64,000 nucleotides of DNA from Verrucomicrobiaceae bacterium (GTDB lineage: Bacteria > Verrucomicrobiota > Verrucomicrobiia > Verrucomicrobiales > Akkermansiaceae), in assembly GCA_027486655.1 (NCBI GenBank), contig JAIXOR010000026.1, forward strand, positions 1 through 64,000, given 5' to 3'. The notes below the pieces were generated by a model. It was given only the letters and a program-made list of their open reading frames with translations, was not told the DNA's origin and searched no databases. Positions within the stretch are counted from its first letter, which is position 1; the number at the start of each line of letters is the position of its first letter. Positions 2,335 to 41,955 of this stretch are shown here, piece after piece. Both the position numbers and the translations under genes were made by a program.

Positions 2335-2519
2335 GAGAATCGAGCAGGCTGTGGTGTCCGTGGCGTCCGGGGTTTTTCTGGGTTTCCCGGTTTCCTTTCA
2401 ATGCGCCGCAGTGCCAGGTGGGAATGGAGATGGCACGACTCTACGCAGCCAGAGCGAGTGGAATTACGGTTCCGTATCTCCCGCAAACTCGGGGAGAGGG
2501 CGGGCGGCGGGAGTGGCCT

Positions 2520-5500
2520 TCAGTTTTCGCTGAGCCGGGCGCGGAAGAAGGTGGAGTCCGCGGGTTTCGGGCCGGTGAGGGTATGAGGGCCACCGGGAAC
2601 GGGCAGGCCATGGTTTCCGGGGATGTTCCAAGGTTGCCATTGGAGAAGGTCCCCGGAGTGCTCGATGATGGCGGAGCGGTTCGGGGGAAGATCGAGCGTG
2701 AAGGAAGCCTGAGTGCCCTGGAGGGACACCGAGGGCCGAAGCAGCGAGGATCCGGACAAGGGATCGGTGCCGGCGAGGAACTCGGCCCGGTTGTTAGAAC
2801 CATCGCCATCCGGGTCTGCGCCTGGAGCGCCTTGCGGGCTGCTGACTGATAGAAACTCGGCCGTCCGCCATTGGTCGTAGGTCTGGCGTGCCGGGAGTTC
2901 GTTCTGGATCCACTCGGTGAGAAGGGCGACGCCGGCGGGATCGACCACATTGCTGCCGAGCGGCGGCATGCGGGTGAAGCCGTTGGAGGCGGCGGTGCGG
3001 TTGAGGAGGATCGATTGGGTGGTCGAGCCGGGGACGACGAGTTTATTGAGTGGATTGCCGCCGTTGTTGCTGGCGTTGCCGAGGATGAGTCCGGTCTGGT
3101 CGAGCGTGAGTTCGTGGCGACCGTCCCAGGCCGAGGGTGCGGCGGTGCCGCCGTCCATGTGGCAGTAGGCGCAGTTCACGGCGAGGTAGGACCGGACGCG
3201 GGCCTCGGCGGGGTAGTTCGTTTCATCCGGCCGCAGGTGGCGGGGCAGGAGGTGGGTGGAGTCCGGGTTGTTCGAGAAATAGCCGCCGTTTTCCAGCACA
3301 TCGATTTGATTGCCGCTGAAGCCCGGGACGAGGCTGGCGAGGTTGTATTGGCGGGTGTTCGAAGAGAGCGCGAATCCGGCCTGCGGTGTGTGGCAGGTCA
3401 TGCATTCGGAGCGGCTCGGGATGCGCCAGCGCTGGGTTTGCGGGGATCCGCCGACCGTGATGGTGAGATCGAAGTCCTCGCCGGGCTCGCCGACGAGAGT
3501 GGCCTCGGTGCCGGCTTCGTTCCACCGGTAGCTGACGCCGTAGGCACCGGTGGTGTTTTTCACGAGCAGCCGGGTTTCGAGGCGTTTGCGGGTTGCGGGA
3601 TTGCCGCGGGTGGTCTCGATGTCGAAGTGCTTCACCCAGATCTGGCCGGTGGGGAAGGTCCACTCGCCATCGCGCGACCAGGTGATTTTCGAGTTGGCAT
3701 CCGGCAGGGTGAACCAGCGGCGTTTGATCGCGTGATCGCTCCAGAAGGGCAGATTGATCTGATAGGGCAGCAGGCCGGGTGCGGGCGACAGGTCCGTTAG
3801 ATCGGCGAAAAGCCCAGTGGCTGTTAGAGTGGCGGGGTAGGTGCTGGTATCGGTGACGGTGGTGATGCGGCGGATGAGGTTGTCGTTGATATCGGCCATC
3901 AGGACATCGCCATTCGAGGGATCGCGGCCGAAGCCGACGATGCCGCCCTCGCCGAGGATGCGGTTGACGGTGGGCGGATTGCCGCCGTTGCGGACGAGCG
4001 ACCAGACATTACCGGAGTTATAGTCCGCGAAGATGTAGGCACCGGTGAGTGATGGCATGCGGGTGCCGCGATAGACGAGGCCGCCGGTGACGCTGGTGCC
4101 TTGGAAGGTGCCGCTGCCGCGTTGGTAGTCGTAGAGTGGATTGATGTGGGTGAAGCCGCCGGGAGCGCCGCCGACGGGTCCGGCGATCATGCCTTCCCGC
4201 CAGACCCAGCCGTAGTTGCCGCCCCGGGTGAGGACGTTGATTTCCTCGCGCGCGCCGCCGCCGACATCGCCGCACCAGAGCTCGCCGGTGGCGGGATCGA
4301 AAGAAAAGCGCCAGGGATTGCGCAGGCCAGCGGCCCAGAATTCCGTTCTAACCGAAGCGGGGGTCACCGCGATGCCATTGAAGGTGGTGGCGCCGACCCA
4401 GGGGTTGTCCGTCGGGATTTCGTAGGCGGGCAGGCCGCCGTGAAGGACGACGGCGGAATGGCTGTTAGGCGGGATGTTGGCATCGTCGGTGGCGGCGGGG
4501 TTTCCGGCGATCTCGGTGCCCTCAAGGTCCACGTCGATGCGGAGCATGCCGGCGAAGAAGTCTTTGTCGATGCGCTGGCTGTTGGCGTATTGGTCATTCT
4601 GGCCGCCTTCATCGCCGAGGGAGATGTAGAGGTAGCCATCGGGCCCGAAGTGGAGGTCGCCGCCGTTGTGGTTGTCAGCCTCGTCGGCCTGTTGGATGAG
4701 GACGCGTTCGGAAGCGAGGTTGGCGGTGGGCGTGGCGGTGGCCGGATTGTTGAGGGTGATGCGGGAGACGCGCTGGTGCCTCGCGCCGCCGATGGTGAGC
4801 GAGTAGAAGAGGAACACGTGGCCGTTGCTGGCGTAGTTCGGGTGGAAGGCCATGCCGAGCAGGCCGCATTCGCTGGTGGTGTTGAGGGCCTCGGCGGGGG
4901 TCCGGCCGTTGAAGAGCCCGCCGGCGGCGGCGCTCAGGGTGAGCACGGTGGAGGTGGTGGGAGAGGCGGCGGTGACGTTGGGAACCACGCGCAGCAGTCC
5001 GCCTTTTTCGCAGATGAAAACGCGCTGCGTGTCGCCGGGTGGCGAGGCGATGCAGACGGGTTGGTTGAACGAGAGTCCGGCAAAGGCATTGACCGCCTGG
5101 ATCGAAACCGGCGGCGGCGAGGCAGGGACCTGGAACGAGTTGTTAGGGATGCGGAGTTGGTTGGAAAACGTGAGTGTGACGGTGGCGGGCTGCGAGAGAC
5201 CACCCGCGCCGCCGACCGTGTAGGTGAATGAATCCGTGGCCGGGCTGCCAGTGTTGTGGGTGTAGAGGATGCTGCCGTTCGGGCTGACGGTGGCGGTGCC
5301 GAACTGGGGTGCCTGAACGATCGTGACCGAGGCCGGATCGAGGGTACCGCTGTCGTTTGCCAGCACGGCGATGCGGACCTTTTGCAGGCGGTGGAGCGTG
5401 GCGGCATCGGCCACGGTGACGGGTGGCGGGAAGTTGGGATTGGGGCCGGTGCTGATGTTGTTGAGGATCTCGGCGTGGGTGAGGGCGCGGCGGTAGATGC

Positions 5501-7100
5501 GCACCTCGTCGTAGGTGATGTTGGCGCAGGAGTCGTTGCCAAACTGCGAGCGGCCGAGCCAGTTGTTCACGTCCTCGACGGAGGAAAGTTTGAAGGGCAG
5601 GTCGCGGGTGGCGGCGAGGGTTCCGTTGAGATACCAGGCGAGCTGACCGCCGGCGGATCCGAACGACCCGGCTCCGTCGGTGAAGGTGATGGCGAAGTGG
5701 TGGCGGGTGCCGGTGGCGAGGGTGAGGTTGGTATCCGTGACCAGTTCGGTGCCCGCATCGATGCGGCCGGCGAGACGTTGCTGATTGGCGGTGGTGCCGC
5801 GGTTGAGGGCGAGCAGGAGATTGTCGCTGGAGGCGGTGGCCCCCGGGGCGGCGGTGGCGGTGTGAAGGATCTCGCCGGGAGCGGCTCCGGCCCCCTGGGC
5901 GGCGGCATTTCCTGTTAGATTGGTGCGGCCGAAGTCGATGATGCGCTGCCAGTTCCGCGCGGCGACCTGGGTGGCCCAGAGTTCCACGGTGAGGTTGGTT
6001 TTCGACGAGACGATGCCGTTGGGCAGATCGACGTAGGCGGAGATGGCGGACGGGGTTTGGTTTCCAGTGGTCGAGCCCGGCAGGGTGAGTGCGGTGCCGG
6101 AAAAGGTGGCCCCGTTTCCACGGACGGTGGCGGTGGCGCTGCCGACCAGATCCGGGATGGTGGAACCTGCGGTGGCGTTTCCCGAGGGATTGGAGAACGA
6201 CCAGCGGTGGACCATGTCGGACTGGGGTGGGACGGGGTTTGCCCCGGAGGCGAAACTTGCGGTGACTTCCGCGGCAGTCATCGCGTGGTCATAGACGCGG
6301 ACTTCGTTGTATGCGGCGTGCGTGTTGCGGTCGCCGCTCCAGTGCGAGCGTCCGAGCCAGTTGTTCACATCCTGGATCTGGTTGAGGCGGAAGCTGGTAT
6401 CGAGCGAGGCGACCAGCGTGCCGTTGCGATACCACGAGGCGCGCCCGCCGGTGGAGGCGAAGGCACCGACGCCGCTCTGGAAGGTGAGCACGTAGTGGTA
6501 TTCCGTGCCGGCGGTGGTGGCTAGGTTGGTATCGGAGATGCCGTATTGGCCGGTGGTGTCCCCTGCCCCGACTCCGTTGATGCGGGTTTCGAAGCGTTGC
6601 TGGCTGAGGCTGCCCGCGGTGTTGCGGGCGAGGGTGAGCGTGAAACCATCGAAGGAACTGGTGGTGCCGGGAGCGGTGGTGGCGAGCCCGGTGATCTCCC
6701 CCGGAGCGCCGAGTCCGTCGCCGGCCTGGGTGATGCGGCCGAAGTCGAGAAGCCGCTGGAACTGCTGGTAGCTGAGCGGAGTGGCCCAGATTTCCACGGT
6801 GAGATGGGTTTTCGAGGAAATCAGGCCGTTCGGCAGATCGATGTAGGCGGAGATCGAGGCCGGCGATTGGTTTCCGGTGGTGGTGCCCGGGAGGACGATC
6901 GAAGAGCCATTCGACGTCGCCCCGACGCCGCGGATGGTGGCGACCGCATTTCCGATGCTGTCGATCTGGGTGGAGCCGGATGCGACGGCACCTGACGGCT
7001 GATTGAATGACCAGCGGTGGACGAGATCGGCAAAAGCCATGGGACCAGCCAGGCATCCGGCGAACCAGCAGTGGAGGAGAGAAACGCGGCAGAGGGTCAT
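2520..7100 (-). CDS. Modular secreted LamG / PQQ-type sugar dehydrogenase / cytochrome c protein
   Basis: A 1526-residue exported protein. The start is set at the ATG at 7100 because it begins a clear signal peptide (MTLCRVSLLH...GPMAFA); an upstream GTG at 7142 is less likely. Domains: two LamG-like modules, each opening with VHRWSF (about 26-290 and 296-560); a VLANDSGTLDP Ig/cadherin-like module (560-650); a six-bladed glucose/sorbosone-dehydrogenase-like propeller (about 670-1080) with HFGPDGYLYISLGDEGG, GLRNPWRFSFDP and GGNYGWVWREG; then a cytochrome-like region with CMTCH (C1233) and CAYCH (C1310). The end has a DPDGDGSNNRAEFLAGTDP calcium-type repeat and a final domain closing in FFRARL. 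It probably oxidises sugars outside the cytoplasm and passes electrons to its own haems (inferred). PQQ binding is not proven. Confidence 0.87.
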   Translation of the reverse strand: MTLCRVSLLHCWFAGCLAGPMAFADLVHRWSFNQPSGAVASGSTQIDSIGNAVATIRGVGATSNGSSIVLPGTTTGNQSPASISAYIDLPNGLISSKTHLTVEIWATPLSYQQFQRLLDFGRITQAGDGLGAPGEITGLATTAPGTTSSFDGFTLTLARNTAGSLSQQRFETRINGVGAGDTTGQYGISDTNLATTAGTEYHYVLTFQSGVGAFASTGGRASWYRNGTLVASLDTSFRLNQIQDVNNWLGRSHWSGDRNTHAAYNEVRVYDHAMTAAEVTASFASGANPVPPQSDMVHRWSFSNPSGNATAGSTIPDLVGSATATVRGNGATFSGTALTLPGSTTGNQTPSAISAYVDLPNGIVSSKTNLTVELWATQVAARNWQRIIDFGRTNLTGNAAAQGAGAAPGEILHTATAAPGATASSDNLLLALNRGTTANQQRLAGRIDAGTELVTDTNLTLATGTRHHFAITFTDGAGSFGSAGGQLAWYLNGTLAATRDLPFKLSSVEDVNNWLGRSQFGNDSCANITYDEVRIYRRALTHAEILNNISTGPNPNFPPPVTVADAATLHRLQKVRIAVLANDSGTLDPASVTIVQAPQFGTATVSPNGSILYTHNTGSPATDSFTYTVGGAGGLSQPATVTLTFSNQLRIPNNSFQVPASPPPVSIQAVNAFAGLSFNQPVCIASPPGDTQRVFICEKGGLLRVVPNVTAASPTTSTVLTLSAAAGGLFNGRTPAEALNTTSECGLLGMAFHPNYASNGHVFLFYSLTIGGARHQRVSRITLNNPATATPTANLASERVLIQQADEADNHNGGDLHFGPDGYLYISLGDEGGQNDQYANSQRIDKDFFAGMLRIDVDLEGTEIAGNPAATDDANIPPNSHSAVVLHGGLPAYEIPTDNPWVGATTFNGIAVTPASVRTEFWAAGLRNPWRFSFDPATGELWCGDVGGGAREEINVLTRGGNYGWVWREGMIAGPVGGAPGGFTHINPLYDYQRGSGTFQGTSVTGGLVYRGTRMPSLTGAYIFADYNSGNVWSLVRNGGNPPTVNRILGEGGIVGFGRDPSNGDVLMADINDNLIRRITTVTDTSTYPATLTATGLFADLTDLSPAPGLLPYQINLPFWSDHAIKRRWFTLPDANSKITWSRDGEWTFPTGQIWVKHFDIETTRGNPATRKRLETRLLVKNTTGAYGVSYRWNEAGTEATLVGEPGEDFDLTITVGGSPQTQRWRIPSRSECMTCHTPQAGFALSSNTRQYNLASLVPGFSGNQIDVLENGGYFSNNPDSTHLLPRHLRPDETNYPAEARVRSYLAVNCAYCHMDGGTAAPSAWDGRHELTLDQTGLILGNASNNGGNPLNKLVVPGSTTQSILLNRTAASNGFTRMPPLGSNVVDPAGVALLTEWIQNELPARQTYDQWRTAEFLSVSSPQGAPGADPDGDGSNNRAEFLAGTDPLSGSSLLRPSVSLQGTQASFTLDLPPNRSAIIEHSGDLLQWQPWNIPGNHGLPVPGGPHTLTGPKPADSTFFRARLSEN

Positions 7101-33406: not shown

Positions 33407-34408
33407 TCAGTCCTTTTCGTCCTCATCCTCATCCTTGTCGTCGTCGTCATCCGCGTCGTCGACGTCGTCTCCGTCGTCGTCGTCGTCTTCATCGTCGTTG
33501 TATCCGTCGCCGTCGTCGTCCTCATCGAGGTCACGGCCTTTGCCGTCGCCGTCGCAGTCGTCGTCGTCGTCGTCGGACCTGCCGTCGCCATCGATGTCAT
33601 CTTCATCGGCGTCATCGTCCTTGCGGCCGTCGCCGTCGCAATCGTCTTCGTCGATGTCGTCATCGTCGAGTCCGTCGCCGTCGAGGTCGTCCTCGTCGAG
33701 GTCATCGTCGTCGCGGCCGTCACCGTCGATATCGTCCTCGTCGATGTCATCGTCGTCGAGTCCGTCACCATCGATGTCGTCTTCGTCGAGGTCGGAGTCG
33801 TCGAGGCTGTCGCCGTCGATGTCGCTTTCGGAGATGGCATCATCGACCACGCCGTCGCCGTCGATGTCGCCTTCGCTGTCGGAGGCGTCGTTCACGCCGT
33901 CACCGTCGATGTCGAGCTCGGAAAGATCATCGTCATCGCGACCGTCGCCATCGATGTCGTCTTCCTTGGCCGAACTGTCACGGCGGCCGTCGCCATCGAT
34001 ATCCGCTTCAGTGGCGGAATCATCGTCGCGGTTGTCGCCGTCGATGTCGTCTTCCACCTTCGAACCGTCCTTGTAGGAATCGCCGTCGATGTCTTTCTCG
34101 TTGTCGGCATCGTCATCGCGACGGTCGCCGTCGATGTCGTCTTCATTGGGATCGTCGTTGCGGAGGCGGTCGCCGACGTATTTGCCCTTGAGCGGCCCGC
34201 TTTTGCAGACGCCGCCATCCACGTTGAGGTCGTCGCCATTGAGGGTGCCGTCGCCGTCGACGTCGGGGTCGACGATGTTGGCGATGCCGTCGGCATCGAG
34301 GTCACGGGGGCCGGCCTGGACCTGGGCGACGCCGAAGGAGGCGGCGGTCGCTGCGGCAATGGCGATTCCCCGGAAGGAGCGGGAGAAACGGGTGCGTTTC
34401 GGTTTCAT
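33407..34408 (-). CDS. Extremely acidic exported protein with 13 tandem DxDGDGxxD repeats
   Basis: A 333-residue protein with a signal peptide (about 1-32, ending VAQVQA). After a thrombospondin-3-like lead (DLDADGIANIVDPDVDGDG), residues 89-283 are thirteen head-to-tail 15-residue units of the type E-D-D-I-D-G-D-G-R-D-D-D-D-L-D in strict register. The remaining 50 residues are almost pure Asp/Glu/Gly. D-x-D-G-D-G-x-x-D is the EF-hand/dockerin-type calcium loop, so one protein could bind many calcium ions. No enzymatic domain is present. It has its own sigma70-like promoter and terminator, so it is a single-gene unit. A surface calcium store, adhesin spacer or biomineral-related role is possible but unproven. 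Confidence 0.8.
   Translation of the reverse strand: MKPKRTRFSRSFRGIAIAAATAASFGVAQVQAGPRDLDADGIANIVDPDVDGDGTLNGDDLNVDGGVCKSGPLKGKYVGDRLRNDDPNEDDIDGDRRDDDADNEKDIDGDSYKDGSKVEDDIDGDNRDDDSATEADIDGDGRRDSSAKEDDIDGDGRDDDDLSELDIDGDGVNDASDSEGDIDGDGVVDDAISESDIDGDSLDDSDLDEDDIDGDGLDDDDIDEDDIDGDGRDDDDLDEDDLDGDGLDDDDIDEDDCDGDGRKDDDADEDDIDGDGRSDDDDDDCDGDGKGRDLDEDDDGDGYNDDEDDDDDGDDVDDADDDDDKDEDEDEKD
33560..34144 (-). repeat. 13 x 45-bp coding tandem repeat
   Basis: The DNA for the 13 units has a 45-base period dominated by GTCGTC/GATGTC-type trinucleotides on the plus strand. Units keep reading frame and length exactly, while codons between units vary. This suggests selection on the protein repeat rather than very recent slippage. 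Confidence 0.85.
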
Positions 34409-34576: not shown

Positions 34577-35626
34577 TCAACAACAACCCGCCTTCGAGCA
34601 GCTTGAGGCGGGCGCCGGGGCGAAGTCGCTCTCACCGCAGCAGGGGCTGGCGGGGAGGTCGGGATCGATGGCGGGAGCCTCCAGCGAGAGATTCGGCTCC
34701 AGGGTGGCGAGGCCGAGCTTGGCGAGCAATGCACGGTCCTTTTCCATGCCCGGATTGTCTGCGGTGAGGAGCTTTTCTCCGTAGAAGATCGAGTTGGCAC
34801 CGGCATAGAAGCAGAGCGCCTGGATCTCGTCCGAGAGACGGGTGCGGCCGGCCGAAAGACGGACCTTGGCACCGGGCACGGCGATGCGGGCACAGGCGAT
34901 CATGCGAACGAGGTCGAAGGGATCGACCTGCGGGTTTTCCGCGAGCGGGGTGCCCGGCATGGGCATGAGCGAGTTGATCGGCACGCTCTCGGGCTGCGGG
35001 TTGAAGCTGGAAATCACCTCGAGCAGGCGGAGGCGGTCGGCGATGGTCTCGCTGAGGCCGAGAATGCCACCGCAGCACACCGAGATCCCGGCGTCCTGGA
35101 CGTTGCGGATGGTGCGCAGACGGTCCTCATAGGTGTGGGTGGTGACGATGTTCGGATAGTGTTCCGGCGAGGTGTCGAGATTGTGGTTGTAGGCGGTGAC
35201 TCCGGCGTCGCGGAGTTGCTTGGCCTCCTCGGGGCCGAGCTCGCCGAGGGTCACGCAGACCTCCATGCCCAGCGTGGACACACCGCGGACGATGTCGAGG
35301 ACCTGCTCGAAACGCGGGGTGCCACCGCGCACACCTTTCCAAGCCGCTCCCATGCAGAAACGGGTGGAGCCTCCTTCCCGGGCGGCGCGGGCGTGTTGCA
35401 TGACTTCCTCGCGCTCCATCAGCACGTGGCTCTCCAGCTCGGTCTTGTAGCGGGCGGCCTGGGCGCAGTAGGAACAATCCTCGGAACAACCGCCGGTTTT
35501 GATCGAAAGCAGGGTGCAAAGCTGGATCTTGCCATCGGGCCAGTGCGTCTCGTGAACCTCGTGGGCGCGCTTGAGGAGGTCGAAGAATGGCAGCGAGTGG
35601 AGTTCCTGGAGTTCGGCGAAAGTCAT
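34577..35626 (-). CDS. bioB: Biotin synthase
   Basis: A 349-residue radical-SAM enzyme that inserts sulfur into dethiobiotin. The ATG at 35626 gives MTFAELQELHSLPFFDLL, the usual N-terminus. The radical-SAM cluster motif C47-x3-C51-x2-C54 (CSEDCSYCAQ) is followed by AAWKGVRGGTPRFEQVLDIV, YNHNLDTSPEHYPNIVTTHTYEDRL, CCGGILGLSE, INSLMPMPGTPL and RLSAGRTRLSDE with FYAGANSIFYGEKLLTADNPG. The C-terminus has an unusual cysteine-rich tail (CC...SSCSKAGCC) beyond the family end. No other bio genes or BirA-type operator are adjacent. It is divergent from the feo operon; the Fe-S demand links it only loosely to iron uptake. Confidence 0.95.
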   Translation of the reverse strand: MTFAELQELHSLPFFDLLKRAHEVHETHWPDGKIQLCTLLSIKTGGCSEDCSYCAQAARYKTELESHVLMEREEVMQHARAAREGGSTRFCMGAAWKGVRGGTPRFEQVLDIVRGVSTLGMEVCVTLGELGPEEAKQLRDAGVTAYNHNLDTSPEHYPNIVTTHTYEDRLRTIRNVQDAGISVCCGGILGLSETIADRLRLLEVISSFNPQPESVPINSLMPMPGTPLAENPQVDPFDLVRMIACARIAVPGAKVRLSAGRTRLSDEIQALCFYAGANSIFYGEKLLTADNPGMEKDRALLAKLGLATLEPNLSLEAPAIDPDLPASPCCGESDFAPAPASSCSKAGCC

Positions 35627-35786
35627 GGTGGCGTTGGCTTGGGAGTGACTAGCGCGGATGCAAGCCGCTTGAAAACCACATAGCAAGGATTGAGCAGCGA
35701 AAAGCGCATCCTGCCGATCCGCCACGGGCTCGGCGGGCGGATCGCGGAAACTTGGAACGGGATCCGCTTGTTCGCGAGAAATCCCC

Positions 35787-35815
35787 TTGCAAATTAGCCA
35801 AGGCTAATTTATTTA
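35787..35815 (+). promoter_or_regulatory. Iron-dependent-regulator (DtxR-type) operator over the feo promoter
   Basis: AAATTAGCC (35791-35799) and GGCTAATTT (35802-35810) are perfect nine-base inverted arms around two bases. The TTAGcc...ggCTAA core matches the style of DtxR/IdeR boxes (TTAGGnnnnnnCCTAA-like). A weak sigma70-like pair, TTGCAA (35787-35792) and TATTTA (35810-35815) with 17-base spacing, encloses it, so bound repressor would block RNA polymerase. The next gene starts 20 bases downstream and itself encodes a DtxR-like repressor, which predicts iron-dependent autoregulation. The palindrome is seen; the regulator assignment is inferred. Confidence 0.75.
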
Positions 35816-35829
35816 CCCAAAGCATATTC

Positions 35830-36780
35830 ATGAAACGTTTTCCGAAAAGCCAGGCCGAGAGCAGCCGCGAGCGGATCGAGGACGCGCTGAAGCATCTTCT
35901 GGACTGCGATGAATCCGGCCGCGGGGCGACCTTGGAGAGCCTGGCGGGAGCGCTGGGCAAGCCGCGGCAGGTGGCGGCGGAAGTGCTGGGCGAGCTGCGC
36001 GGGCGTGGCTTGGCGGGAGCTTTGGGAGACAGCCACCGGTTGACGGAGGATGGCAGGGTTTATGCGCTGCAGGTGGTGCGCAGTCACCGGCTGTATGAGA
36101 CCTGGCTGGCACGGGAAACCGGGACCCCGGCGGACAGCTGGCACCGGGAGGCGCACAAGGCGGAGCATTTGATGAATCCGGACGAGGTGGATGCGTTGGC
36201 GGACCTTCTCAACCATCCGCGCTTCGATCCCCACGGCGATCCGATTCCGACGCGCGAGGGTCATCTGCCGAAGCGATCGCTCGTTTCCCTGGCCTCGTGG
36301 CCGGATGAGGAGGCTGGGCACGTCGAGCACATCGAGGATGAGCCCGAGGCGCTTTTCCGCAGGATCCAAACGCTGGGGCTGGCGCCGGGCACCCGGCTGG
36401 ATGGCGCGTTGCATCTGGCCGATGGATCGGTGGAGTGCACGGTGGAAGGCCGCCGGCTTATCGTGCCATCCGCACTGGCCTCGTTGATTCATCTGGAGCG
36501 CCTGGACGAGCCGGATCACCGGCCGGAAGGCCTGCACCGTCTCTCCGATCTGCCCATCGGCGGGGATGCCGTCGTTTACTCGCTCTCCCCATCCTGCAAC
36601 GGTGCGGAAAGGCGCAGGCTTCTGGACCTGGGTGTGGTGCCTGGCACGCGGATCCATTGTGAGTTCGCCAGCCCGTTCGGATCGCCCCGCAGTTACCTCA
36701 TCCGCGGTGCCCTGATCGCCCTGCGAAACCAGCAGGCGGAACGCATCCTCGTCCACCCACCCGCATCCTCCCCGCCATGA
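35830..36780 (+). CDS. DtxR-family metalloregulator fused to FeoA domain(s)
   Basis: A 316-residue protein; the ATG at 35830 follows the operator directly. Residues 15-75 are a winged helix (ATLESLAGALGKPRQVAAEVLGELRGRGL). Residues 76-143 are the DtxR metal-binding and dimerisation domain: VVRSHRLYETWLAR, then WHREAHKAEHLMNPDEVDAL with His105, His109, Glu112 and His113, and PHGDPIP. His109 replaces the Cys102 ligand of DtxR. Two SH3-like FeoA-type domains follow (about 150-225 and 235-308); the second is canonical (LSDLPIGGDAVVYSL, RRRLLDLGVVPGTRI, LIRGALIALRNQQAERILV). DtxR itself has one such domain. The protein may therefore both repress the operon and act as its FeoA subunit. Its stop overlaps the next start (ATGA). 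Confidence 0.88.
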   Translation: MKRFPKSQAESSRERIEDALKHLLDCDESGRGATLESLAGALGKPRQVAAEVLGELRGRGLAGALGDSHRLTEDGRVYALQVVRSHRLYETWLARETGTPADSWHREAHKAEHLMNPDEVDALADLLNHPRFDPHGDPIPTREGHLPKRSLVSLASWPDEEAGHVEHIEDEPEALFRRIQTLGLAPGTRLDGALHLADGSVECTVEGRRLIVPSALASLIHLERLDEPDHRPEGLHRLSDLPIGGDAVVYSLSPSCNGAERRRLLDLGVVPGTRIHCEFASPFGSPRSYLIRGALIALRNQQAERILVHPPASSPP

Positions 36781-37592
36781 ACACGCCCGATCCCCATGCC
36801 CCCGGCGAGGCCTGCCTCACCTGCCCGTCCCGTTTCAGCCAGCTCCGCAAACTCGGCCTGCGGGTGGGGGAAAGCGACTTCGTGATCGCCCTGGCCGGCA
36901 ACCCGAACACCGGCAAGACCACGGTTTTCAATGCCCTCACCGGCCTGCGCATGCACACCGGGAACTGGCCTGGAAAGACCATTTCCCGCGCGGAGGGGGC
37001 CTTTTCCTACGACGACAAGCGCTACAAGATCGTCGACCTTCCCGGCACCTATTCCCTGCTCTCCGCATCGCCCGATGAGGAGGTCGCGCGCTCGTTCCTG
37101 CTTTTTGGCCGGCCCGATGCCACCGTCATGGTCGCGGACGCCACCTGCATGGAACGGAACCTCAACCTGATCCTCCAGGTGCTCCAGATCACCCGCCGCG
37201 CCGTGCTCTGCCTGAACCTGATGGACGAGGCCCGCGCCCATGGGATCGAGATCGACGTGCGAAATCTCGCCCGTGACCTCGGTGTGCCCGTGATTCCCTG
37301 CTCCGCCCGCTCCGGCGAGGGCATTCCCGAGTTGCTCAAGGAAATCGCGATCATCGCCACCCGCCCGGACACGCCGGAACCGAGGCGACTCCCGCTCGAG
37401 GTGCCCGGACTCCGCGGCGCGCTCGACCGCGTCGAGTCGGAGCTCCGGGAGGCCTTCCCGCTGCTGCCCCAGCCGCGATGGGTGGCACTGCGATTGTTGG
37501 AAGGCGACCGCGAGATCATGGATGCCGTCCGCTCCGGAGAAATCGGAGCGCTGGCGGAACCCGTTGCCATCCCCTCCACCCTGAGTGCCTGA
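36777..37592 (+). CDS. feoB: FeoB GTPase (G-domain) subunit, separate from the channel
   Basis: A 271-residue soluble protein equal to the N-terminal part of FeoB. All G motifs are visible: G1 GNPNTGKT, G2 TGNWPGKT, G3 VDLPGTYSLL, G4 NLMD, G5 CSARSGEG, followed by the helical GDI region (VPGLRGALDRVESELREAF, WVALRLLEGD). No membrane span is present. The N-terminus carries a C-x-x-C pair (EACLTCPS) not found in standard FeoB. It overlaps the DtxR-FeoA gene by four bases and is followed after nine bases by the membrane half. In most bacteria both halves are one ~770-residue protein. Confidence 0.93.
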   Translation: MNTPDPHAPGEACLTCPSRFSQLRKLGLRVGESDFVIALAGNPNTGKTTVFNALTGLRMHTGNWPGKTISRAEGAFSYDDKRYKIVDLPGTYSLLSASPDEEVARSFLLFGRPDATVMVADATCMERNLNLILQVLQITRRAVLCLNLMDEARAHGIEIDVRNLARDLGVPVIPCSARSGEGIPELLKEIAIIATRPDTPEPRRLPLEVPGLRGALDRVESELREAFPLLPQPRWVALRLLEGDREIMDAVRSGEIGALAEPVAIPSTLSA

Positions 37593-37601
37593 ACTCCCGC
37601 C

Positions 37602-39011
37602 ATGAAGCATCCGGAAGACGTGATCCGAAGCGCCGAGGAACTCCGCTGGCAGCTCCCGCAAAACCTGCACGACCGCATCGCCGAGTCGATCTACGGCGAG
37701 GCGGCCCGCATCGCTTCCCGCTCGATCCGCCGCAATGGATCGTCCCGCCGCCTGGTCTGGCAGCAGAAGCTCGACCGCATCCTGACCCACCCGTGGACCG
37801 CCTTTCCGATCATGGTGCTGGTGCTCGGAGTGATCCTCTGGCTGACGATCGTCGGTGCCAACGTGCCATCCGGCATGCTCGCCACCCTGCTCGTCGATCA
37901 GGGCCACGCGTTGCTCTCCGGATGGTTCGCGGCGGCGGGTGCTCCGGTTTGGCTCAAAGGCCTGCTCGTCGATGGCATGTATCTCGCCACCGCCTGGGTG
38001 ATCGCGGTGATGCTGCCGCCAATGGCGATTTTCTTCCCCTGCTTCACCCTGCTGGAAGACTTCGGATTCCTGCCCCGCGTGGCCTTCAATCTCGATCGTG
38101 TGTTTCAAAAAGCCGGAGCACACGGCAAACAGGCACTGACCATGGCCATGGGCCTCGGTTGCAACGCCGCAGGGGTGGTCGCCACCCGCATCATCGACTC
38201 GCCGCGCGAGCGACTCATCGCGATCCTCACCAACAATTTCTCGCTCTGCAACGGCCGCTGGCCCACCCAGATCCTCATGGCGGGCGTCTTCATCGGCACC
38301 CTGGCCCCCAAAGGCTGGGGCGGCAGCATCGCCGCACTCTCTGTGCTGGTGGTCGCGCTGTTAGGTTTCGGTTTCGCCCTGCTCACCTCCTGGCTGCTCG
38401 CGCGCACCCTCCTCCGCGGCGAGGCCACCTCGTTCAGCCTGGAGCTTCCGCCTTATCGTCCACCGAATTTCTGGAAAACCCTCTACACCTCGTTGATCGA
38501 CCGCACCCTGATCGTGCTGTGGCGCGCCGTGGTCTTTGCCCTGCCCGCGGGAGCGGCCATCTGGCTTTGCGCGAATGTCTCCATCGGCGGGCAAAGCGCT
38601 GCGGCCTGGTTCGTGCAGTTTGCCGATCCGCTCGCCTGGGTGATGGGCCTCACCGGCGTGATTCTGCTGGCCTACATCGTCGCCATTCCTGCCAACGAGA
38701 TCGTCGTTCCCACCATTCTCATGCTCACCGTGCTCGTCACCGGTGCCAGCGGCGGCGCGGGGGCCGGTGTGATGTTTGAGACCGATGACGAATCCGTGCG
38801 CGCCATCCTCACCGCAGGCGGATGGACCACTCTCACCGCCGTCTGCCTCATGCTCTTCAGCCTCTGCCACAATCCCTGCTCCACGACCATTTACACCATC
38901 TACAAGGAGACGCGCAGTTTCAAATGGACCACCGTCTCGGTCGTGATGCCCCTGGCCATCGGCTTTGTTCTCTGCTCGACGGTCGCTGCGGTCTGGCGCT
39001 GGCTGGCTTGA
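37602..39011 (+). CDS. feoB: FeoB membrane (Fe2+ transporter) subunit, separate from the GTPase
   Basis: A 469-residue polytopic protein equal to the C-terminal part of FeoB. About eight spans carry the gate motifs: FFPCFTLLEDFGFLPRVAFNLD, the cysteine in MGLGCNAAGVVATRI, the ELPPYRPP linker, and FSLCHNPCSTTIYTIYKE near the end. The first 55 residues (DRIAESIYGEAARIAS) match the linker that normally joins GTPase and channel, so the break falls in the linker. A separate ATG and short gap show a genuine gene split rather than a recent frameshift. It imports ferrous iron into the cytoplasm. Confidence 0.93.
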   Translation: MKHPEDVIRSAEELRWQLPQNLHDRIAESIYGEAARIASRSIRRNGSSRRLVWQQKLDRILTHPWTAFPIMVLVLGVILWLTIVGANVPSGMLATLLVDQGHALLSGWFAAAGAPVWLKGLLVDGMYLATAWVIAVMLPPMAIFFPCFTLLEDFGFLPRVAFNLDRVFQKAGAHGKQALTMAMGLGCNAAGVVATRIIDSPRERLIAILTNNFSLCNGRWPTQILMAGVFIGTLAPKGWGGSIAALSVLVVALLGFGFALLTSWLLARTLLRGEATSFSLELPPYRPPNFWKTLYTSLIDRTLIVLWRAVVFALPAGAAIWLCANVSIGGQSAAAWFVQFADPLAWVMGLTGVILLAYIVAIPANEIVVPTILMLTVLVTGASGGAGAGVMFETDDESVRAILTAGGWTTLTAVCLMLFSLCHNPCSTTIYTIYKETRSFKWTTVSVVMPLAIGFVLCSTVAAVWRWLA

Positions 39012-39100: not shown

Positions 39101-39679
39101 ATGGATCCACGGGAAACCACAGATGCCGATTTTTCCGGGCAGTTCACCACCGAGCGCCTGCTCCCGCTGGCTTATGACGAGCTGAGACGCCTCGCCGCCG
39201 CCCGCCTGCTCGGCGGAGTCAAGGGCATGACGCTGCAACCCACCGCCCTGGTGCACGAGGCCTGGATCCGCCTCTCTGCGAAAATCGACCGCAGTTGGGA
39301 AAGCCGCGAACATTTCCTCAATGCCGCCGCGCTCACCATGCGCCGCATCCTGATGGACCGCGCCCGCCAGAAAGCCAGCATCCGCCACGGCGGCGGCGAG
39401 ATCCCACTGCCTAGCACCGCCGACACGCCAGACCTCAGCGCGGACGAACGCCTTCTGCTCGTCGAGGAAAGCCTCAGCCGCTTCGAGGCGGAGAATCCGG
39501 AGGACAGCCGCATCGTGGTTCTCAAGTTCTTCGCCGGACTCACCAATCAGGAAGTCGCGGACTCGCTCGGCGTGAATGAGAAAACCGTGCGCCGGAAGTG
39601 GATGATGGCCAAGGCAAGGCTCTTCCAGATCCTCACCGAGATCGAATACCAGCGCGATCATCCCGCCGCCTCCGCATGA
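39101..39679 (+). CDS. ECF-type RNA polymerase sigma factor
   Basis: A 192-residue sigma-70-like factor of the Acidobacteria/Verrucomicrobia-type ECF family. Region 2 has LLPLAYDELRRLAAARLLGG and PTALVHEAWIRLS; HFLNAAALTMRRILMDRARQKASIRHGG leads to region 4 with LSRFEAENPEDSRIVVLKFFAGLTNQEVADSLGVNEKTVRRKWMMAKARLF. Its TGA overlaps the ATG of the kinase gene (ATGA), so the two are translationally coupled. No anti-sigma factor is present. In this group the kinase is believed to control sigma activity, so an externally triggered phosphorylation switch is likely. The downstream PATR gene is a candidate target. Confidence 0.9.
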   Translation: MDPRETTDADFSGQFTTERLLPLAYDELRRLAAARLLGGVKGMTLQPTALVHEAWIRLSAKIDRSWESREHFLNAAALTMRRILMDRARQKASIRHGGGEIPLPSTADTPDLSADERLLLVEESLSRFEAENPEDSRIVVLKFFAGLTNQEVADSLGVNEKTVRRKWMMAKARLFQILTEIEYQRDHPAASA

Positions 39680-41955
39680 ACCCCGAGGATTCCACGGAGA
39701 TCGATGAAGTGCTCTTCGATGCCGCACTCGGCATCGATACCCAGGATTCCCGGGAAGCGTTCTTCGACCTGATCCGAGATGGCGACCCAGCCCTTTCGGA
39801 ACGCCTGCGCGCTTTGGCCACCCTCCAGACGCGGGCGGACCGTTTTTTCCGCATGGCCCAGGGCGCGCTCACCACCGTGGCCACCGAGACCGGGCAGGAG
39901 CTCATCGATCAAGATCCCTCACCACTTCAGGCCAACGATGCCCCCCGCCCGGCCCACGAGGAACCCGGCGGCCGGATCGGTCGCTACCAACTGGAATCCC
40001 GCATCGGCGAAGGCGGCTGCGGCGTCGTCTACCTCGCGGAGCAACTCGAACCGGTCCGCCGCAAGGTCGCCCTCAAGGTCATCCGGCTCGGCATGGATAC
40101 CGAGCGCGTCATCACCCGTTTCGAAATGGAGCGGCAGTCTCTCGCGCTGATGGATCACCCGAACATCGCCCGCGTGCTCGATGGCGGCGCAACGGATTCC
40201 GGACGCCCGTATTTCGTCATGGAATGGGTGCGAGGCCCGCGGATCACCGATTTCTGTGATGCCCACCATCTCGGCATCCGCCAGCGCATCGACCTTTTCA
40301 TCGAGGTTTGCAAAGGCATCCAGCACGCCCACCAGAAAGGAGTGATTCACCGGGACATCAAACCCTCGAACATCCTCATCGACGAATCCGGCGATCACTG
40401 CCCGAAGATCATCGACTTCGGCATCGCAAAAGCCATCTCCGGCGCAAGTGTGGCCGATACCCAGTTCTCCGCCCAGGACCAGTTCCTCGGCACCCCCGCC
40501 TACATGAGCCCCGAACAGGCGGACCGGCGCGAACGCGACATCGACACCCGCAGCGATGTCTACAGCCTCGGCATGCTGCTCTATGAACTGCTGGCCGGCC
40601 GGCCGCCCTTTGATTCCGCGCAGCTCTCCAACGCGGGGATCCAGGAAACCCTGCGCATCCTTTCCGAGGAGGACCCACCCCTCCCCTCCGCCTTGGTCGC
40701 ATCGATGAACTCCGAGGAGCGGGCTGGAATCGCCTCCCGCCGTGGCGTCGATCCGGCCAGGCTAAGCTCCTCGCTCGCGGGAGACCTCGATTCGGTGGTG
40801 ATGAAGGCGATCGAGAAAAACCGCTCGGACCGCTACGAGACGGTCAATGGGCTCGTCATGGACTTGCAGCGCTACATCGGACACGAGCCGGTGATCGCCC
40901 GCCCCGCAAAGCGCGCCTATCTGTTCCGAAAGTTCGTCCAGCGAAACCGCATCGCCGTCGGCGCGACCACCGCCGTGCTTGTCTCCCTGCTGCTGGGTCT
41001 CGGCAGCGCGTTTTCCTACTACCTCAAGGAACGCCACGCCGTGGAGGAACAAGTGCGCCTCCGCACGCTTGCCGATCTCGCCCATGCCAACGAATTGAAA
41101 CGCCTCGCCGAGGCCCGTGTCTGGGAGGAGTTCGCCCACGTTTCCGTCCTCCTCAGCGAAGGCCGCACCCAGGAGGCCGATGAACAACTTCGCAAAACCC
41201 CGCTCGCATCGATCCAGCTCACCCCGCAATCCGCCTCGGTCCTGCGCTCGCTTGGAAACTGGAACTCACTCCGCGGACGCTGGCCCCAGGCCGCCGAGTG
41301 CTTCCAGATGCTCATCAAGGCAGACGACCTGAACCAAGGCGCGACCCTCAGCGACTCGCTCGATGTGGTCGCCATCGCCTGCGTCCTCATCGAGGGCGGA
41401 TCGATCGACGCATTCAGGAAGTTCCGCGACTGGTCGATCGACCGCTACGCGTTTTCCGGCTCGGCGAATGATGCCTCGCGCCTGCTGCACTCGATTCTCA
41501 TCGTGCCGATGGACCGGCCGACCCTGGAACGGCTCGCCCCGCTCAAGGCGGTCTTGGCTGAACCCGGATTCAACAAAAACCTGCCCCGCTCCAGCCGGGA
41601 TCGGGAACTCGCCATCTGGCGCGCGTTTGGCATCGCCCTGCTGGAATACCGCCTCGGAAACCACGAAGAGGCCCGGAAATGGACGGAGCTGGGCCTTTCC
41701 TTCGAAGACCGCAGGGATTACATCTCCGGGGCCCTCGATCCGATCCTGGCCATGGCCTGCCACCACCTCGGAGACAAAACCACCGCCCGCGCCGCCCTCG
41801 ACCGCTGCGCCGCACGCATCGACAAGGCCTTCGCCCCGGAACTCCCCGCCGCATACGAGCCGTTCGGGAAATTCCAGGGATTCTGGTGGGACTGGATCAT
41901 CGCCCGCATCCTGTTCCACGAGGCGGACGAGCTGATCCGCCCCGGCGCGCGCTGA
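39676..41955 (+). CDS. Transmembrane Ser/Thr protein kinase coupled to ECF sigma factor
   Basis: A 759-residue Hanks-type kinase. Residues 1-100 are a helical region. The kinase domain spans about 103-390: GEGGCGVVYLAEQ (ATP loop), VALKVIRL (Lys134), HRDIKPSNILID (catalytic loop, 225-236), DFGIAKAI (247-254), GTPAYMSPEQADRR and SDVYSLGMLLYELLAGRPPF. One membrane span (about 424-446, AVGATTAVLVSLLLGLGSAF) is followed by a roughly 310-residue region, presumably outside the membrane, with tetratricopeptide-like helices (LRSLGNWNSLRGRWPQAAECFQML). This layout with the upstream coupled sigma gene suggests a sensor relaying an outside signal to transcription. A hairpin terminator follows. Confidence 0.92.
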   Translation: MNPEDSTEIDEVLFDAALGIDTQDSREAFFDLIRDGDPALSERLRALATLQTRADRFFRMAQGALTTVATETGQELIDQDPSPLQANDAPRPAHEEPGGRIGRYQLESRIGEGGCGVVYLAEQLEPVRRKVALKVIRLGMDTERVITRFEMERQSLALMDHPNIARVLDGGATDSGRPYFVMEWVRGPRITDFCDAHHLGIRQRIDLFIEVCKGIQHAHQKGVIHRDIKPSNILIDESGDHCPKIIDFGIAKAISGASVADTQFSAQDQFLGTPAYMSPEQADRRERDIDTRSDVYSLGMLLYELLAGRPPFDSAQLSNAGIQETLRILSEEDPPLPSALVASMNSEERAGIASRRGVDPARLSSSLAGDLDSVVMKAIEKNRSDRYETVNGLVMDLQRYIGHEPVIARPAKRAYLFRKFVQRNRIAVGATTAVLVSLLLGLGSAFSYYLKERHAVEEQVRLRTLADLAHANELKRLAEARVWEEFAHVSVLLSEGRTQEADEQLRKTPLASIQLTPQSASVLRSLGNWNSLRGRWPQAAECFQMLIKADDLNQGATLSDSLDVVAIACVLIEGGSIDAFRKFRDWSIDRYAFSGSANDASRLLHSILIVPMDRPTLERLAPLKAVLAEPGFNKNLPRSSRDRELAIWRAFGIALLEYRLGNHEEARKWTELGLSFEDRRDYISGALDPILAMACHHLGDKTTARAALDRCAARIDKAFAPELPAAYEPFGKFQGFWWDWIIARILFHEADELIRPGAR

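Follow-up and report, generated by a model that had tools for sequence, protein, structure and literature searches.

A DtxR-FeoA-FeoA protein encoded beside a two-protein FeoB in a verrucomicrobial genome as a candidate metal-sensing transporter subunit

Within the first 64,000 nucleotides (nt) of contig JAIXOR010000026.1 from the Verrucomicrobiaceae bacterium assembly GCA_027486655.1 (hereafter the window), the forward strand carries, in this order, an operator-like palindrome, a gene fusing a DtxR-type core to two FeoA domains (the twin protein), and separate genes for the GTPase and the channel of a FeoB-type transporter. Twin and GTPase genes overlap in an ATGA at 36777-36780, and 9 nt separate the GTPase gene from the channel gene. 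The open reading frames (ORFs) and their Pfam domains, PF02742 and two FeoA stretches in the first product, bear out the DtxR-FeoA-FeoA fusion and the translationally overlapping single operon that a first-pass annotation of these letters had described. From sequence comparison we hold it slightly more probable than not that the system is an MntR-controlled FeoB2-type importer, most likely for Mn(II) and perhaps for both Mn and Fe, with a two-protein FeoB and an apparent repressor that serves as its metal-sensing FeoA subunit.

In the mechanism we propose, the ATGA overlap would couple the synthesis of twin protein and GTPase, and the twin protein would dimerize and bind cytosolic metal, upon which the FeoA domain of the metal-filled dimer would alter its grip on the FeoB GTPase so that import is slowed or stopped, a feedback acting at the protein level. 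Transcription would be switched separately by a Mn-loaded MntR, a 142-residue protein encoded at an unlinked place (contig C30), on the palindrome over the promoter. The main interest of the system lies in this DtxR-family sensor seemingly turned transporter subunit, the split FeoB itself being common in its subfamily. The role of FeoA for FeoB is an open question, and an FeoA domain joined in one chain to a dimer that senses metal suggests a direct answer, feedback of the metal on the GTPase.

Sensing core, FeoA domains and membrane anchor of the twin protein

Comparisons were made over 111 loci (the window, sets of 6 and 24, and the best 80 of at least 570 confirmed relatives), some of which are cut by contig ends. 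Among the 25 loci that encode both a twin and a canonical DtxR, recognition helices have a mean pairwise identity of 0.196 in the twin versus 0.553 in the canonical protein and wings one of 0.158 versus 0.439, with nearly equal values, 0.621 and 0.619, for the metal/dimer domain. Within the clade of seven that contains the window, the recognition helix, at 0.494, is likewise the least conserved stretch measured, against 0.583 for the wing, 0.807 for the dimer domain and 0.821 for the second FeoA domain. Pfam searches on 75 of the 95 twins and 23 of the 25 canonical DtxRs found PF02742 and FeoA in every protein of both groups, and PF01325 at E 0.001 in 3/75 twins versus 23/23 canonical DtxRs of the same loci; the window protein gives no PF01325 match. 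A profile of the canonical helix-turn-helix (HTH) finds nothing above 10 bits in all 23 twins without a predicted membrane anchor, the window protein among them, and exceeds 10 bits in 28 of the 69 anchored twins (maximum 30.1). It reaches at least 58 bits in 45 of 48 other DtxR ORFs; 32 of these 48 come from the loci on which the profile was trained, and the 16 held out divide into 13 at 58 bits or more and three at 18-27. By these comparisons the metal/dimer core of the twin is conserved and its DNA-recognition surface is not. Alignment with IdeR places Pro45, Gln47 and Glu51 of the window protein at IdeR positions 37, 39 and 43, which we take to be DNA-touching; P39G and Q43A variants of IdeR appear among the titles of solved structures. 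The net charge of the DNA face, considered as a further line of evidence, is lower in the twin than in the canonical protein at 23/25 loci and is valid for the family; it fails for the window protein.

The two FeoA stretches of the twin are of different types. In the AlphaFold2 model, residues 236-311 superpose on B. fragilis FeoA (7r7b) with Z 13.9 and a root mean square deviation of 1.4 over 74 residues. When profiles of the first and second domains were run on the forward-strand ORFs of all 111 loci, a free FeoA was found at 12 of the 16 loci that have no twin (L059, L061, L064, L066-L071, L114, L118, L146); the second-domain profile gives it 64-100 bits, the first-domain profile no more than 18. 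At the other four (L080, L099, L101, L116) the GTPase gene lies near a contig end, and L080 retains an apparent tail of a cut twin gene. The 95 twin loci yielded a single free match of the second type, of 22 bits, at L112. By profile, then, the second FeoA domain of the twin belongs to the type for which sister operons have a free feoA gene. Six of these sister operons (L066-L071), from the window's own family (genus code g13, presumably Akkermansia), run in the order dtxR with one FeoA domain, free feoA and fused feoB. A scan of 387 genomes of the phylum, scoring up to five candidates per genome so that extra copies may escape, found twins (E <1e-90) in 16, each time beside the FeoB type of the window on one contig; the channel (E 1e-60) occurs in 25, namely these 16, the six of L066-L071 and three with a free FeoA. 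The FeoA domain of the twin probably sits on FeoB.

In 69/92 twins the stretch from the earliest potential start codon to the HTH contains a 17-residue segment with a mean Kyte-Doolittle value of 1.6 or more, a predicted N-terminal membrane helix. It often starts with M-x-D-P-x-x-A-L-L, ends with F-W-P-x-x-G and is followed by basic residues; on the channel tree the trait needs only two changes. Two of 33 canonical DtxRs reach the same threshold, each in a part of the frame that precedes the likely start. In some 30 verrucomicrobial genomes, frames of about 435 residues and longer encode further proteins that the twin profile matches, from the vicinity of the membrane helix to the end of the dimer domain. 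Ten of these, from eight genomes (L199-L206), are ABC-3 (ATP-binding cassette) permeases with a C-terminal DtxR domain; all ten match PF00950 and PF02742, and PF01325 matches 0/10. A canonical DtxR with PF01325 stands in two of the eight stretches read (L205 and L206, the two longest). At L205, two such permeases are encoded next to each other on the reverse strand (1113-2468 and 2387-3841), with a separate canonical DtxR nearby.

The twins may represent a widespread DtxR-derived family in which a repressor was turned into a metal-sensing FeoA subunit: the DNA surface would have been lost, the sensing dimer kept and the FeoA of the operon absorbed, most members would be seated in the membrane and throttle import at the protein level, and another DtxR would read TTAG-N6-CTAA. 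We regard this broader proposal as nearly, if not quite, an even call. If it is true, the permease fusions, with no recognizable DtxR HTH in 10/10, would extend this use of DtxR domains to metal importers in general, and annotations of a "metal-dependent transcriptional regulator" beside feoB may not denote transcriptional regulators.

The first-pass annotation had instead assigned both functions to one protein, a repressor and FeoA subunit for which FeoB and DNA would compete. The true FeoA type of the second domain and the presence of a DtxR fold are in keeping with such a dual role, as is a reported repressor role for the transporter-tied DtxR domain of Chlamydia YtgC-YtgR (PMC5599777). The proposal requires DNA binding, however, against which the recognition surface speaks, and the membrane helix predicted in 69/92 relatives would make shuttling to DNA less easy. 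We retain its FeoA half, the probable seat on FeoB, and let go of its repressor half on account of the unconserved recognition helix; taken whole, the dual role seems improbable to us.

The operator-like palindrome and its candidate readers

The arms of the palindrome (35791-35799 and 35802-35810) are 100% complementary, and a search for it at up to three mismatches gave a mean of 0 matches in 100 shuffles of the window. At the same tolerance it has a single place in the 5.33-Mb genome, and a reversed control pattern likewise has one. The near-perfect, DtxR-box-style palindrome first noted over the promoter is a real operator-like element, and perfect rather than near-perfect; what did not hold is the likeness to the classic DtxR box, as TTAGG-N6-CCTAA at up to two mismatches has 2 matches in the window, fewer than the chance mean of 5.35, and 0 at the operator. 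The palindrome fits TTAG-N6-CTAA, a pattern common to relatives across phyla. This box occurs in exact form upstream of 30/101 regulators (in 100 rounds of letter shuffling, a mean of 0.51 and a maximum of 3), at a density of 1.02 per kb upstream versus 0.031 in the remaining locus sequence, and any other gap of 0-15 between the half-sites is found at no more than three loci. The 30 sites comprise 28 distinct ones, with a few near-duplicate loci among them.

Several observations point to a separate DtxR-family protein as the reader of this box. It lies near the start of the separate canonical dtxR at 15/25 loci, and at L020 it separates the twin gene from a classical mntR that runs divergently. 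In the window's clade it is present in 5/5 genomes with a second DtxR, a separate MntR, and in 0/2 without one; in one of the latter (L076) the flanks of the box are kept and one half-site has decayed. Over 65 genomes, counted by PF02742, the link is weak: the box occurs in 28 with and 2 without a second DtxR, and is missing from 26 and 9, respectively (one-sided Fisher p 0.041).

We consider the separate MntR a better candidate reader of the box than the twin, and the self-regulation that had been read into the operon is not borne out, given this and the unconserved recognition helix of the twin. Self-regulation of the kind described for PgMntR and FB2 of P. gingivalis would have the Mn-loaded twin bind the palindrome, the second FeoA domain only stabilizing the protein. 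Such a model draws on the electrophoretic mobility shift and deletion data for PgMntR (PMC4805248), on the position of the box directly 5' of the twin gene with a core unique in the genome, and on the winged-helix fold retained in the model. It has to contend with the missing canonical recognition-helix residues, the low identity of this helix in the clade of seven beside that of the dimer domain, the lack of a PF01325 match, the canonical DtxR encoded within 3 kb of 38/92 twins (two of the 38 being weak), and the absence of the box from both clade genomes that yielded the twin and no other DtxR. We judge self-regulation unlikely, though somewhat less so than the dual role.

A box read by MntR and a twin working on FeoB also have a body of evidence to answer. 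Both clade genomes lacking MntR are drafts, one of them 88% complete, and the link between box and second DtxR, weak over the 65 genomes, loses significance in a tree-aware test with nine independent pairs. The 65-genome set omits 21 loci whose operon includes a canonical dtxR; scoring these as box-absent moves p to 0.18, and scoring the box also at the canonical gene (14/21) moves it to 0.020. The core TTAGCCAAGGCTAA occurs once in the genome (reversed control 4), which would fit a local regulator equally well, as would the lack of the box near MntR and Nramp genes: at up to one mismatch none was found in the loci read around the Nramp, MntR or FeoAB genes. The window protein itself, together with 22 other twins, has no predicted membrane helix by the Kyte-Doolittle criterion, its winged-helix fold is predicted intact by AlphaFold2, and its helix 3 and wing carry a net charge of +2, the same as the genome's own MntR. 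The main counter-evidence comes from PMC4805248, where PgMntR bound its own promoter in vitro specifically at ~0.7-1 uM, also without metal, and lost this binding without the second FeoA domain. Should the window protein bind DNA as PgMntR does, it may have both roles or act as a repressor alone.

A scan for the sigma-70 consensus found no promoter, and the palindrome lies within a possible promoter core read by eye; CTTGC and TATTTACC stretches are seen again in the clade relatives L017 and L018. The palindrome shares its intergenic region with a divergent gene (34577-35725, reverse strand) that is biotin synthase-like by inspection, and could also influence that gene.

The two-protein FeoB and its genomic setting

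GTPase and channel are encoded in different frames at 75/111 loci and in one frame at 36/111 (74 and 34 without three duplicates), the split loci coming from Verrucomicrobiota, Bacteroidota, Chloroflexota, Acidobacteriota, Calditrichota, Ignavibacteriota and others. The split and fused states require, on a tree of 108 channels, at least 11 changes, six of them forced by the starred branches, and the window falls in the clade of seven, all of them split, with channel identities to the window of 83-87%. L076 and L078 are among the nearest named relatives, which suggests a place in Akkermansiaceae, Verrucomicrobiota. FeoB_N, Gate and FeoB_C are all present and are spread over two proteins, GTPase and channel not forming one polypeptide here. 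The break lies in the linker, as originally described: the split point corresponds to a stretch of variable length in fused relatives, and of the 90 positions of the FeoB_Cyto profile, the window GTPase matches only 8-49 and the fused protein of L137 only 1-46. The first reading had suggested looking elsewhere for the same gene order; of the 111 loci, 95 have a twin and 75 a split FeoB, and all 16 phylum twins adjoin this FeoB type. At two split loci, L085 and L099, 579 and 683 nt lie between the FeoB halves; the other listed split loci have less than 100 nt. At L055, a short MntR-like ORF (5599-6018, forward strand, a 140-residue frame) with a weak HTH score of 26.8 lies directly 3' of the FeoB channel gene.

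On this comparative evidence the split is real and ordinary within its subfamily. A single FeoB broken by a sequencing error or by pseudogene decay was considered and ruled out because independent relatives are also split; with 75/111 loci split, all seven clade members split at high channel identity, and both GTPase and channel proteins conserved, we give it practically no credence. A search of PDB sequences found no relative of the channel at E 0.01. Among the matches listed in searches of open-access literature, which covers no subscription papers, none dealt with a split FeoB or a membrane-bound DtxR-FeoA. A natural two-protein FeoB would offer a test system for the role of FeoA.

The same genome also encodes a full-length FeoB (contig C66, locus L023) with a FeoA (PF04023, E 8.7e-9) directly 5' of it; this FeoA is matched by Pfam PF04023 and by neither of the profiles of the two twin FeoA domains. 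Such a second, full-length FeoB with a separate FeoA, carrying the iron phenotype, had been named as what would overturn the first interpretation; of this, the genes are there in the sequence. An Nramp protein, the classical 142-residue MntR and three Fur-family places complete the set of metal genes found. A few kb from the canonical feoAB lies a gene for a putative TerC-like membrane protein (L023:8048-8923, reverse strand). In the window, the neighbourhood of the operon (Table 1) includes, by inspection, an ORF with a long, calcium-binding-repeat-like run of D-x-D-x-D-G acidic repeats (33407-34408, reverse strand) and, just 3' of the operon (39101-41955, forward strand), an ECF-type (extracytoplasmic function) sigma factor and, after it, a large protein resembling Ser/Thr kinases.

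Table 1. Features of the operon and of its putative control region, in window coordinates (aa, amino acids; pLDDT, predicted local distance difference test score)
Feature	Position	Strand	Description
Possible promoter core	35787..35815	+	TTGCAA, 17 nt, TATTTA, with the palindrome between; read by eye from the sequence, putative
Operator-like perfect palindrome	35791..35810	.	AAATTAGCC-AA-GGCTAATTT, 9-2-9; core TTAGCCAAGGCTAA at 35794-35807
Twin protein DtxR-FeoA-FeoA, 316 aa	35830..36780	+	PF02742 and two FeoA stretches; AlphaFold2 pLDDT 93.6
Recognition-helix position, aa 45-52	35962..35985	+	P R Q V A A E V, unlike S-x-A-S-V-T/S of canonical neighbours; no PF01325
Metal-binding/dimerization domain, aa 72-141	36043..36252	+	PF02742, E 1.5e-23
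First FeoA/SH3 domain, aa 152-226	36283..36507	+	DtxR type by profile and fold match
Second FeoA domain, aa 232-311	36523..36762	+	True FeoA type; PF04023; resembles free FeoA of sister operons
FeoB GTPase protein, 271 aa	36777..37592	+	FeoB_N and part of FeoB_Cyto; structure entry 3k53, E 2.1e-53
FeoB channel protein, 469 aa	37602..39011	+	Gate and FeoB_C

Metal specificity and comparison with known systems

His86, Glu90, His105, Glu112, His113 and His135 are invariant in 102/102 aligned proteins, a set that includes seven single-FeoA proteins and three duplicates. The Met10 position holds Asp in 100 of the 102, and the Cys102 position holds Glu in 65, His in 18, Asp in 16, Cys in 2 and Asn in 1. 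Alignment of the window protein with an IdeR fragment puts Asp18 at the Met10 position and confirms the His first noticed at the Cys102 position as His109, leaving the aligned primary site with no thiol or thioether ligand. The best fold matches are Mn-dependent repressors, with the iron-dependent IdeR close behind: 8pw0 (DR2539) matches residues 4-147 of the window model (Z 20.9) and 5zr6 residues 15-225 (Z 21.8). Both share with the window protein a pattern of Asp, Lys, His and Glu and, unlike it, have no second FeoA domain; the aligned DR2539 fragment moreover has a canonical recognition helix. DR2539 of D. radiodurans, which like the window protein has Lys in place of Glu11, responds to both Mn and Fe (PMC3327659), and PgMntR binds Mn tightly and is encoded with the Mn transporter FB2, Fe loosening the PgMntR-DNA complex (PMC4805248). 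Because of the Asp and non-Cys ligands, the fold matches to Mn repressors, the Mn binding of PgMntR and the response of DR2539 to both metals, Mn is the likelier metal of the two, and the protein may sense both.

The iron specificity originally assigned to the operon accordingly finds no confirmation in a site without thiol or thioether ligands whose nearest characterized relative sits with a Mn transporter (PMC4805248). An importer with Fe(II) as main substrate and signal, an alternative that cuts across the other readings, would suit the membership in the FeoB family and the dual response of DR2539 (PMC3327659). It is at odds with the absence of a Met or Cys ligand from the aligned primary site, with the separate FeoAB and three Fur-family places in the genome, and with top structural matches that are Mn-dependent repressors, IdeR notwithstanding; we think it rather unlikely, but the least so of the alternatives considered.

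Compared with the importer that we favour, in which the twin senses metal as part of FeoB, the genome's own canonical FeoAB (L023) likewise has FeoA directly before the FeoB GTPase and comprises FeoB_N, Gate and FeoB_C, whereas the window FeoA is the tail of a DtxR-type sensor and the window FeoB is split. The channel motifs also differ, NNFSLCNGRWP and IPANEIV in the window versus APWMSCSARLP and AAREVF in the canonical FeoB. The FeoA-FeoB fusion reported from B. fragilis (PMC8980893) is likewise counted here as a canonical FeoAB.

The Chlamydia YtgC-YtgR protein resembles the window system in tying a DtxR domain to a metal importer. According to PMC5599777, it is an ABC metal permease-DtxR fusion with orthologues in 11 phyla, reportedly cleaved to a DNA-binding YtgR with a repressor role; it combines an ABC permease with no FeoA domains, in contrast to the FeoB, the FeoA domains and the lack of a membrane part in the window protein. 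The combination of two FeoA-like domains in one protein has been mentioned before in PMC8749426, which also groups some Firmicutes Feo clusters with the P. gingivalis Mn transporter; a search of its text gave no match for 'split', 'DtxR' or 'Verrucomicrobi'.

The closest characterized relative is PgMntR (PG1044) of P. gingivalis with FB2/FeoB2 (PG1043) (PMC4805248); the P. gingivalis sequences themselves were not found among 393 genomes of its order, which gave 7 matches, two of them (L196 and L197) from small genomes. The window protein has the makeup of the PgMntR type, a DtxR core with two FeoA domains encoded beside FeoB. PgMntR and the window twin share the DtxR part with two C-terminal FeoA domains, the operon with a FeoB-type transporter and Asp at the Met10 position. 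Of the PgMntR-type primary-site ligands Asp, Cys, Glu and His, the window protein (Asp18, His109, Glu112, His113) has three, with His in place of Cys. The two proteins differ in Cys108 of PgMntR versus His109 of the window protein, and in that PgMntR is reported as a promoter-binding regulator.

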